From Acidiphilium sp. 37-60-79 (lineage in GTDB: Bacteria; Pseudomonadota; Alphaproteobacteria; Acetobacterales; Acetobacteraceae), in assembly GCA_002279355.1 (NCBI GenBank), contig NCBV01000019.1, positions 62,001 through 126,000 on the forward strand: a DNA stretch of 64,000 nucleotides, read 5' to 3'. The notes under the pieces are model-generated. The model was not told the origin of the DNA and searched no databases. It was given only the letters and a program-made list of their open reading frames with translations. Both the position numbers and the translations under genes were made by a program. Of this stretch, positions 32,957-35,821 are shown piece after piece. Numbering within the stretch: position 1 is the stretch's first letter; each line of letters starts with the position of its first letter.

Positions 32957-35821
32957 ATGAACGACCAGCCCGCCCCGCCGCGCGACTACCGCAGCACCGT
33001 ATTCCTGCCAAAAACCGAGTTCCCGATGCGCGGCGATCTTCCCACCCGCGAACCCGAAACCCTCGCCCGCTGGCAAGCGCAAAACCTGTTCGCCCGCCTG
33101 CGCGCCGATGCCAAAGGCCGCACCCCCTTCATCCTGCATGACGGCCCGCCTTACGCGAATGGCAATCTGCATATCGGCCACGCGCTGAACAAAATCCACA
33201 AGGACGTCATCAACCGCGCCCGCCAAATGGCCGGCTTTGATGCCAATTACATCCCCGGCTGGGACTGCCACGGCCTGCCGATCGAATGGAAAGTCGAAGA
33301 GCAATATCGCAAAGTCGGCAAAAACAAAGACGACGTGCCGGTGCTCGATTTCCGCGCCGAATGCCGCGCCTACGCCGCCCATTGGCTTGCCATCCAGGCC
33401 GATGAATTCAAACGCTTGGGCGTCGAAGGCGATTGGGCCAACCGCTACGCCACCATGGATTTTCGCTCCGAAGCCGCCATTGCCGCCGAAATCCACAAAT
33501 TCGCGGCCAACGGCGCGCTTTATCGCGGCCTGCGCCCGGTCATGTGGAGCCCGGTGGAGAAGACCGCCCTCGCCGAAGCCGAAGTCGAATATCAAGACAA
33601 AAAAGACACCGCCATCTGGGTCCGGTTTAGGATCGATTCGTCTCCAGTGAGGCCATACCAGGACGCTGGACCCGTCACAGACGACGATCTGGGCATGTAT
33701 GGATCGTCAATTGTCATCTGGACGACTACGCCGTGGACGATCCCCGGAAACCGAGCAATAGCGTTCAACCCCCACCTAGATTACGAGTGGATAAAAGTCG
33801 GAGCAGTTGCTCCGGGTTCACTGGCAATCGCTGGCGAACGCCTCGTAGTGGCATCGGCTTTGGTCGAAAAGTTCTGCTCCGACGTTGGCATTGAAGATTA
33901 CGAGACTCTTCAAACCTTTGAAGGTAATCGTTCGCCGGGCACGTCACCACTTGAGAATCTTCTGTGTGCTCATCCCTTGCGAAAATTTCTTCAGTCAGGT
34001 GAGCAACAATATACGTTTCCCGTTCCTGTATTGCCAGGCGAATTCGTAACCGACGAAGCAGGCACCGGCTTTGTTCACATGGCCCCCGCCCATGGCGAGG
34101 ATGATTTCTTCCTCTGCCGCGCGCACAACATCGAAGTCCCCGAAACCGTGCAGGATGATGGCACCTACGCGCCCGATGTGCCGCTCTTCGCGGGTATGCA
34201 TGTCTATAAGGTCGCCAACGCCGTCTGCGAGGCGCTCAGCCAAACCGGCGCCCTGCTCAAACGCGAGGAATTCCTCCACTCCTACCCGCATTCCTGGCGC
34301 TCCAAAGCCCCGCTGATCTATCTCGCCCGCCCCAATTGGTTCATCCGCATGGATGGCCCCGAGCAAATCCGCGAACACGCGCTCAAAGCCCTCGATGCCA
34401 CCCAATTCGTCCCCGATCAGGGCCGCAACCGTATCCGCGCGATGGTCGAAACCCGGCCCGATTGGTGCATCTCGCGCCAGCGCGCCTGGGGCGTGCCGAT
34501 CGCCATTTTCGTCGATAAAACCACCAAACAGATCCTCAACGACCCCGCCGTGTTCGCTCGCACCCGCGCCTTGTTCGAGGCCGAAGGGGCGGATGCTTGG
34601 TATGCCCGCCCCCCCGCCGATTTTCTGGGTAATGCCTACAACCCGGACGATTACGACCAAGTGTTCGACATCGTCGATGTCTGGTTCGAGAGCGGCTCAA
34701 CCCACGCTTTCGTGCTCGAAGCGCGTGGCCTACCCTGGCCAGCCGATCTCTATCTCGAAGGCTCGGATCAACATCGCGGCTGGTTCCAAGCCTCCCTGCT
34801 CGAAGCCGTCGGCACCCGTGGCCAAGCCCCGTTCAAAGCCATCGTCACCGATGGCTTCGTGCTCGATGAGCAGGGCCGCAAAATGTCCAAATCGCTCGGC
34901 AACGTCACCGCCCCGCAAGAGGTGATCGATGTCTATGGCGCCGATATTCTGCGCCTCTGGGTGATGAATGCCGATATCCATAACGATCTGCGCATCGGCA
35001 AAGACATTCTCAAACAACAAGCCGATCTCTATCGCCGGATTCGCAACACGCTGCGCTGGCTGCTCGGCGCGCTCGATGGTTTCACGCAAGCTGAAATCAT
35101 CGCCGATGAAAATTTGCCCGAACTGGAACGCTATATCCTGCACAAGCTCGCCGAGCTTGACGCCATGGTCCGCAACGCCGTCGCCACCCATGATTGGACC
35201 GGCGTGTATCCGGCCATCCACCAATTCTGCAATAACGATCTCTCAGCGTTTTATTTCGATATCCGCAAAGATGCCCTCTATTGCGATGTCACGCTCGATG
35301 CCGTGCAGCAGCAAACCAAGCAAAGCGCCACCCGCAGCGCCTGCCGCACCGTCCTCGATATCACGCTCCGCTGCCTCTGCACCTGGCTCGCCCCGGTGCT
35401 GCCCTTCACCGCCGATGAAGCCTGGCGAGCCCGCTTCGGCACCGATCGCTCGGTCCATTTGGAACAATTCCCCGCAAATCTTGCAGCCAAGCTCAACCCA
35501 ACGCTGCATCAGCGCTGGGGCCAAATTCGCGATACAAGGAGCGCCATCACCCTCCAAATCGAGCAAATGCGCGCGCAAAAAACCATCGGCTCCTCGCTGC
35601 AAGCCATCGCTCTGATCCCGCAAGACCAAGCCGCCAGCCTCTCCCCCGAAGGTTGGGCCGAACTCTGCATCACCTCCGGCGCCCAATTGGGTCAGGCGGT
35701 GGCCGGTGCCGCCGTCGCCACCGGCGCAAAATGCGCCCGCTGCTGGCGCGTGCTCCCGGATGTCGGGACCAATGAGGATCATCCGAGCCTCTGTGGCCGT
35801 TGTTGCGAGTATGTCGCATGA
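32957..35821 (+). CDS. ileS: isoleucyl-tRNA synthetase with mosaic editing domain
   Basis: 954 residues, normal length, charging tRNA-Ile. Class I motifs are NLHIGHALNKI (about residue 72) and KMSKSLGN (about 642). A C-terminal zinc-binding tail is formed by CARCWR and CGRCC. The CP1 editing domain includes IVIWTTTPWTIPGNRAI (about 253) and GTGFVHMAPAHGEDDF with the conserved Asp region. Codons 224-374 use far more A/T-ending and rare codons (CGA, ATA, GGA, AGG, CTA) than the flanks, although the protein reads through intact. The stop overlaps lspA (ATGA). Confidence 0.96.
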   Translation: MNDQPAPPRDYRSTVFLPKTEFPMRGDLPTREPETLARWQAQNLFARLRADAKGRTPFILHDGPPYANGNLHIGHALNKIHKDVINRARQMAGFDANYIPGWDCHGLPIEWKVEEQYRKVGKNKDDVPVLDFRAECRAYAAHWLAIQADEFKRLGVEGDWANRYATMDFRSEAAIAAEIHKFAANGALYRGLRPVMWSPVEKTALAEAEVEYQDKKDTAIWVRFRIDSSPVRPYQDAGPVTDDDLGMYGSSIVIWTTTPWTIPGNRAIAFNPHLDYEWIKVGAVAPGSLAIAGERLVVASALVEKFCSDVGIEDYETLQTFEGNRSPGTSPLENLLCAHPLRKFLQSGEQQYTFPVPVLPGEFVTDEAGTGFVHMAPAHGEDDFFLCRAHNIEVPETVQDDGTYAPDVPLFAGMHVYKVANAVCEALSQTGALLKREEFLHSYPHSWRSKAPLIYLARPNWFIRMDGPEQIREHALKALDATQFVPDQGRNRIRAMVETRPDWCISRQRAWGVPIAIFVDKTTKQILNDPAVFARTRALFEAEGADAWYARPPADFLGNAYNPDDYDQVFDIVDVWFESGSTHAFVLEARGLPWPADLYLEGSDQHRGWFQASLLEAVGTRGQAPFKAIVTDGFVLDEQGRKMSKSLGNVTAPQEVIDVYGADILRLWVMNADIHNDLRIGKDILKQQADLYRRIRNTLRWLLGALDGFTQAEIIADENLPELERYILHKLAELDAMVRNAVATHDWTGVYPAIHQFCNNDLSAFYFDIRKDALYCDVTLDAVQQQTKQSATRSACRTVLDITLRCLCTWLAPVLPFTADEAWRARFGTDRSVHLEQFPANLAAKLNPTLHQRWGQIRDTRSAITLQIEQMRAQKTIGSSLQAIALIPQDQAASLSPEGWAELCITSGAQLGQAVAGAAVATGAKCARCWRVLPDVGTNEDHPSLCGRCCEYVA
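33626..34078 (+). other. compositionally foreign segment inside ileS
   Basis: My hand count gives G or C in the third position of about 79 of 154 codons here (51 percent), against about 35 of 46 just upstream and 29 of 37 just downstream (76-78 percent). The change is abrupt at both ends and coincides with the editing domain. The frame is kept. It looks like a recombinational replacement of part of the gene by a donor allele of different composition. Confidence 0.75.

Follow-up and report, generated by a model that had tools for sequence, protein, structure and literature searches.

Evidence for recurrent in-frame exchange of part of the isoleucyl-tRNA synthetase editing domain in Acidiphilium and other Alphaproteobacteria

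The isoleucyl-tRNA synthetase (IleRS) gene, ileS, of Acidiphilium sp. 37-60-79 is interrupted by a segment of low third-position GC (GC3), raising the question of whether part of the proofreading domain of this essential enzyme has a different origin from the rest. In class Ia synthetases, the CP1 editing domain is an independently folding unit with two connections to the body; that of IleRS handles Val-tRNA(Ile). The gene lies in the 64,000-nucleotide stretch of DNA analyzed here (hereafter referred to as the window; Table 1), has an intact reading frame of 954 codons and is the one full-length ileS copy in the genome (G000), which falls in the same GTDB genus as Acidiphilium iwatense. The product contains both the HIGH and the KMSKS motifs and aligns to the solved IleRS structures 8c9e and 1ffy over residues 10–953 (E values down to 1e-221); the match to 8c9e (E 1e-221), which is a type 1 enzyme sensitive to mupirocin, makes it an ileS1-type product.

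The GC3 of ileS was 0.762 in codons 1–223, 0.503 in codons 224–374 and 0.734 in codons 375–954, and none of 1000 shuffles of synonymous codons reached a dip of this size. The lowest-GC3 segments in a scan started at codons 264–279 and ended at codons 368–373, with z values of about -6.3 to -6.4 (best, -6.39). Codon counts in the dip segment, compared with those in the upstream and downstream flanks, were 4 vs 0 and 0 for GGA, 2 vs 0 and 0 for ATA, 2 vs 0 and 1 for both CGA and AGG, and 1 vs 0 and 1 for CTA. Thus, the fall in GC3 within the gene and the clustering of these five codons, which an earlier note on this DNA had described, are real. The note had also let the dip coincide with CP1; it does lie inside CP1 but covers only the first two thirds, since alignment to the CP1 structures 1WK8 and 1UDZ extends the domain to about residue 437.

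Table 1. Features of the window ileS gene and its editing domain (positions are those of the window)
Feature	Residues	Position	Strand	Evidence
ileS, bacterial-type isoleucyl-tRNA synthetase	954 aa	32957..35821	+	open frame; homology to solved IleRS
CP1 editing domain	~221-440	33617..34276	+	alignment to 1WK8/1UDZ; AlphaFold model; Foldseek
Putative foreign recombination tract	~225-368	33629..34060	+	informative-site switches; dS saturated inside
Hypervariable core common to swaps	261-340	33737..33976	+	identity drop in swapped pairs
GC3-dip core	264-373	33746..34075	+	scan statistic; GC3 about 0.45
5' anchor EVEYQDKKDTAIWVRF	209-224	33581..33628	+	near-identical between alleles, two independent swaps
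Thr-rich editing motif TTTPWT	256-261	33722..33739	+	inside the putative foreign tract
3' anchor and native catalytic block GTGFVHMAPAHGEDD	369-383	34061..34105	+	conservation; native side of junction
Second, weaker variable module	~841-905	35477..35671	+	before C-terminal zinc ribbon

To place the segment, we compared the gene across 13 Acidiphilium genomes, among which G007 is the nearest relative of the window strain and G001 is more distant. The N-terminal part was 97% identical to that of G007 in protein and 94% in DNA, whereas residues 224–366 were only 52% and 54% identical, respectively, with 28 gapped columns. Against G001, the identity was 88% in the N-terminal part and 78% in CP1, where the alignment was free of gaps. 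The synonymous divergence (dS) between the window gene and that of G007 was 0.24 in the N flank and 0.36 in the C flank but saturated in CP1. Separate trees of the three parts conflicted with strong support. The window sequence grouped with G007 in the N-part tree (97/98; grouping with G001 rejected, p-AU 6e-6) and in the C-part tree (100/100; grouping with G001 rejected, p-AU 3e-79) but with G001 in the CP1 tree (100/98; grouping with G007 rejected, p-AU 4e-4). The proposal that the segment has a source of its own, made in the earlier note together with the suggestion of three-part phylogenies, therefore stands: the parts yielded neither a single tree nor a composition shared by vertical descent. 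A sharp in-frame divergent block between flanks of high identity, a jump in dS and conflicting trees are the marks of homeologous recombination, and this comparison of sequences indicates that the window segment is a replacement by recombination.

The limits of the tract were read from informative sites, which were G007-like up to codon 224, G001-like in codons 225–368 and G007-like again from about codon 372, the switch back falling between codons 368 and 372. A further stretch, codons 414–440, also favored G001 over G007 and may reflect divergence of G007 there. The codons of GTGFVHMAPAHGEDD follow the native lineage, and the foreign tract stops just short of them, spanning roughly the first two thirds of CP1; the replacement is not domain-precise, as had been supposed, and the editing site is thus composed of foreign and native parts. 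The Thr-rich motif comes from the foreign tract and HMAPAHGEDD from the native part. Both editing motifs, TTTPWT and HxAPxHGxDD, are intact in the window IleRS and conserved in all alleles: TTTPWT was invariant in an alignment of 61 sequences, and G369, T370, G371, V373, H374, P377, H379, G380 and D383 were at least 95% conserved in 129 relatives. The frame and the fold have been kept, as the earlier note held. An AlphaFold model of residues 215–445, built from this family only, had a mean pLDDT of 90.8, and Foldseek matched it best to IleRS and to IleRS editing domains. Leaving aside its final few residues, the model was least certain in a loop at about model residues 19–30 (residues 233–244 of the window enzyme), inside the foreign tract. 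With the motifs conserved and the predicted fold retained, the chimera probably still edits Val-tRNA(Ile).

A second pair in the genus is cleaner still in its contrast. The ileS genes of G001 and G002 were 98–99% identical in their N and C parts but only 51% in CP1, where 24 alignment columns were gapped in one of the pair and dS was saturated; outside it, dS was 0.09 in the N flank and 0.05 in the C flank. Their valS genes were 96–100% identical in every window of the comparison. The junctions lay at conserved motifs in this pair as well as in the window/G007 pair. The 13 Acidiphilium genomes carried at least five CP1 types, which differ by whole blocks and indels: type A (the window strain and G001), type B (G002), type C (G003, G004, G005, G007, G009 and G010), type D (G012) and type E (G006, G008 and G011). 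In the ileS of G012 (L015), GC3 was low (0.35) up to about residue 440 and identity was reduced up to about residue 480, so that the swapped tract there appears to include the remainder of CP1.

We then surveyed 129 alphaproteobacterial ileS genes for closely related pairs with a diverged CP1, counting one pair per event. Eight separate swapped pairs were found: window/G007 and G001/G002 in Acidiphilium; G233/G404 and G370/BA416 in Acidocella (genus g69, so labelled because records named as Acidocella have the same sequences); G289/G074 in another genus of Acetobacteraceae (g63); and, in Sphingomonadales, L095/L108 (Sphingorhabdus group), L101/L102 (Porphyrobacter group) and L071/L113 (Croceicoccus). 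The nucleotide identity of the swapped pairs was 0.38–0.59 over residues 261–340 and mostly 0.85–1.00 in the flanks. This core of about 80 residues, bounded by TTTPWT and a conserved HP motif, was common to the pairs that we laid out window by window, while the outer limits varied. For L108, a donor lineage is visible: its core matched that of L080/L083 (identity, 0.82–0.85), with a core dS against L080 of 0.44, below the flank dS of 0.69–0.82, and its flanks were sister to L095/L098. What had been presented as a single striking case is therefore present in the window strain, but Alphaproteobacteria have swapped this segment many times. These comparisons suggest that the CP1 stretch behaves as an exchangeable, hypervariable cassette in related bacteria.

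As controls, we scored drops, defined as a 60-residue window more than 0.35 below the median of the pair, in close pairs of Acidiphilium and Acidocella. Drops occurred in 23 of 53 pairs for ileS (19 in CP1 and 4 near the C-terminus, at 800–900), in 1 of 59 for valS and in 3 of 43 for leuS, the last all at the N-terminus of one truncated sequence in a set drawn from Acidocella plus the window genome; neither control gene thus had a convincing drop. These counts are descriptive, as the pairs share history and are not independent, and Fisher values computed from them should not be read at face value. When the threshold was swept, the ileS excess held at all settings, with many weak valS and leuS drops at loose ones. 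The valS and leuS controls rule out a general trait of class I editing domains. Nor is the pattern general to ileS: CP1 drops were absent from all 269 close pairs among 25 genomes of one gammaproteobacterial genus, and a strongly diverged CP1 was absent from 5375 E. coli genomes, in which its identity to the query segment never fell below 90%. Within E. coli, CP1 DNA (query L238:900-1320) fell into two classes, with 4256 genomes at 95% or above and 1119 at 90–95%, hinting at a milder exchange of alleles.

CP1 seems to be the main hotspot in ileS but not the sole one, as sections near the C-terminus are swapped too. Residues 841–900 were 25–35% identical in amino acids between Acidiphilium species. 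The dS of this module jumped to 1.60 vs 0.19 in L095/L098 and to 1.75 vs 0.20 in L095/L108. In E. coli SC418 (NZ_LR778147.1, L238:301-3129), residues ~801–900 of ileS are replaced by a diverged segment (33–55% nucleotide identity), the rest being 88–100%, mostly 93–100%, identical to K-12 per 20-codon block; this type of segment occurred in 1 of 5426 E. coli genomes. Like the swap described here, that of SC418 is an in-frame replacement within IleRS, of about 100 residues, but in a module other than CP1.

Could the divergence have arisen without any exchange? Vertical descent, with a weakly constrained CP1 that evolved very rapidly or relaxed its codon usage, would account for the lower identity of CP1 than of its flanks across the family, and the dN/dS within alleles was indeed higher in the core (0.09–0.36) than outside (0.04–0.14), mostly by 2- to 5-fold. 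The dS of the core between carriers of the same allele was, however, roughly equal to that of the flanks, which points to relaxed purifying selection on the core rather than a mutation hotspot. A CP1 saturated at synonymous sites beside flanks at 0.05–0.09 in G001/G002, the significant tree conflict in the AU tests and allele lengths that differ by whole blocks all speak against descent in place, which we consider very improbable; for the pairs tested, with flank dS of 0.05–0.36, vertical hypervariability is refuted by the saturated dS and the AU tests. In-place hypermutation, for example by a diversity-generating retroelement, is likewise rejected by the normal core dS within alleles and by the blocks and indels that separate alleles. 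An artifact of assembly or binning, which would have joined another strain's CP1 into the contig, deserves consideration because the genomes are drafts, probably metagenome bins (98 contigs for the window genome, 580 for G001 and 280 for G007). The window allele nevertheless occurs independently in G001 at 78% nucleotide identity, G002, with its ileS on a contig of 3.6 Mb, has a swap as well, the pattern recurs between named isolates (L071/L113, L101/L102 and L098/L100), and no such patches occur in valS and leuS from these genera. With the allele common to two genomes and the pattern present in isolates, a chimera of assembly is just as unlikely as vertical descent.

We thus consider it highly likely that codons ~225–368 of ileS were exchanged in frame in an ancestor of the strain, by motif-anchored homologous recombination with an AT-richer donor, and that the same segment has been swapped repeatedly in other Alphaproteobacteria. 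In the mechanism that we propose, DNA of an AT-richer alphaproteobacterial donor would enter the cell and recombine with ileS, with EVEYQDK...WVRF and GTGFVHMAPAHGEDD, the near-invariant motifs that flank the segment, as pairing anchors. The crossover or gene-conversion tract would end at these conserved motifs, as the positions of the junctions suggest, and the divergent middle would be exchanged as a unit, giving a chimera that folds and edits Val-tRNA(Ile). A foreign CP1 would be tolerated because the domain is self-contained and attached at two points. The anchoring of homologous exchange in conserved motifs is well supported by the sequence comparisons. As for the donor, of the 129 genes, 73% had a lower GC3 in CP1 than in the flanks (19% by a margin exceeding 0.15) and only 5% a GC3 higher by more than 0.05; foreign alleles thus tend to be AT-rich. 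In the CP1 tree, types B and E and an Acidocella allele formed a clade (95/91), beside which the window type was placed weakly (72/74). Type E comes from a lineage of Acidiphilium with low GC3, making a low-GC acidophilic relative a plausible donor of the window allele. The best matches to the window CP1 outside Acidiphilium, in 397 genomes of the family and 385 of the class, were at about 45–58% amino acid identity, with no close match among them, so the suggestion of an AT-rich relative draws on composition and on the weak grouping (72/74). Plasmids, phages and viral contigs contained no close copy (best protein matches below 60%; DNA matches covering 10–11% of the query), and we rejected an ileS cassette borne by a mobile element or phage. 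Two IMG/VR contigs, L240 (149 kb) and L242 (332 kb), encode relatives of IleRS CP1 with 41% and 35% identity; these may be viruses with a synthetase of their own or misassigned bacterial DNA.

Why this segment is exchanged so often is a separate question. The diversity of alleles may reflect relaxed constraint on the core of about 80 residues combined with frequent exchange, a weaker inference than that of the exchange itself, and selection for rare alleles possibly contributes. A form of such selection, diversifying or negative frequency-dependent, could act on the alphaproteobacterial CP1 alleles if an antagonist recognized the CP1 surface: an inhibitor or natural product, a phage factor or a delivered toxin, from which a swap to a rare allele would offer escape while the catalytic residues are kept. 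The extreme diversity of alleles, the swapping of the same core in at least eight separate pairs and the contrast with valS, leuS and the gammaproteobacterial genus agree with this idea, but the within-allele dN/dS is below 1, the open-access literature searched names no agent that acts on the IleRS editing domain, and neutral exchange into a tolerant module predicts the same pattern. We regard such selection as possible though rather unlikely, and keep it in consideration because valS and leuS, whose editing domains are similar, lack swaps, a contrast that tolerance by itself leaves unexplained. Adaptation of each lineage to a different tRNA(Ile) or to a different editing demand, such as norvaline, homocysteine or acid stress, appears more doubtful. 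CP1 handles Val-tRNA(Ile) and the swapped part contributes the editing site's Thr-rich half, as such co-adaptation would have it; yet G001 and G002, which hardly differ in valS or in the ileS flanks, carry different CP1 alleles, and the catalytic residues are conserved. A tRNA(Ile) query matched only one genome (G010), too few for a comparison.

Intragenic recombination as such is already known, while a CP1 swap or hotspot has no earlier report in the open-access literature searched. Intragenic 'homeologous' microdiversity loci were described in 2010 in bacterial core genomes, from strains of three species, with homeologous recombination among the causes proposed for the diverged blocks (PMC2884548); the main text names neither ileS nor any other tRNA synthetase. 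Those loci are likewise short, in-frame, highly diverged blocks within otherwise conserved genes, whereas in our case the exchanges fall again and again, and across genera, on a single domain of an essential gene, with evidence from trees and one donor lineage. Whole ileS genes (ileS1/ileS2) are transferred horizontally, with a link to mupirocin resistance, and ileS1 agrees with species trees, full and trimmed alignments giving no significantly different topology (PMC4861432). IleRS alleles move between bacteria in both cases, but here the unit that moves is a portion of CP1, within an ileS1-type gene, rather than the whole gene, and alignments of whole or trimmed ileS1 would miss a swap of ~140 residues. 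The IleRS CP1 structures 1WK8, 1UDZ and 1WNY share the fold and the conserved editing motifs with the window allele, which differs in having about 30% sequence identity to them and extra loops near residues 232–247 and 322–352.

These results indicate that IleRS, essential though it is and encoded by a gene reported to track the species tree, has an exchangeable proofreading half-domain. As whole-gene ileS trees hide CP1 swaps, ileS can mislead locally when used as a marker. G001 and G002 constitute a natural domain-swap pair, nearly identical enzymes with a CP1 only ~48% identical, which offers a test of how much CP1 variation the enzyme can bear before fidelity suffers. An adaptive cause of the recurrence would imply an agent, as yet undiscovered, directed against IleRS editing.
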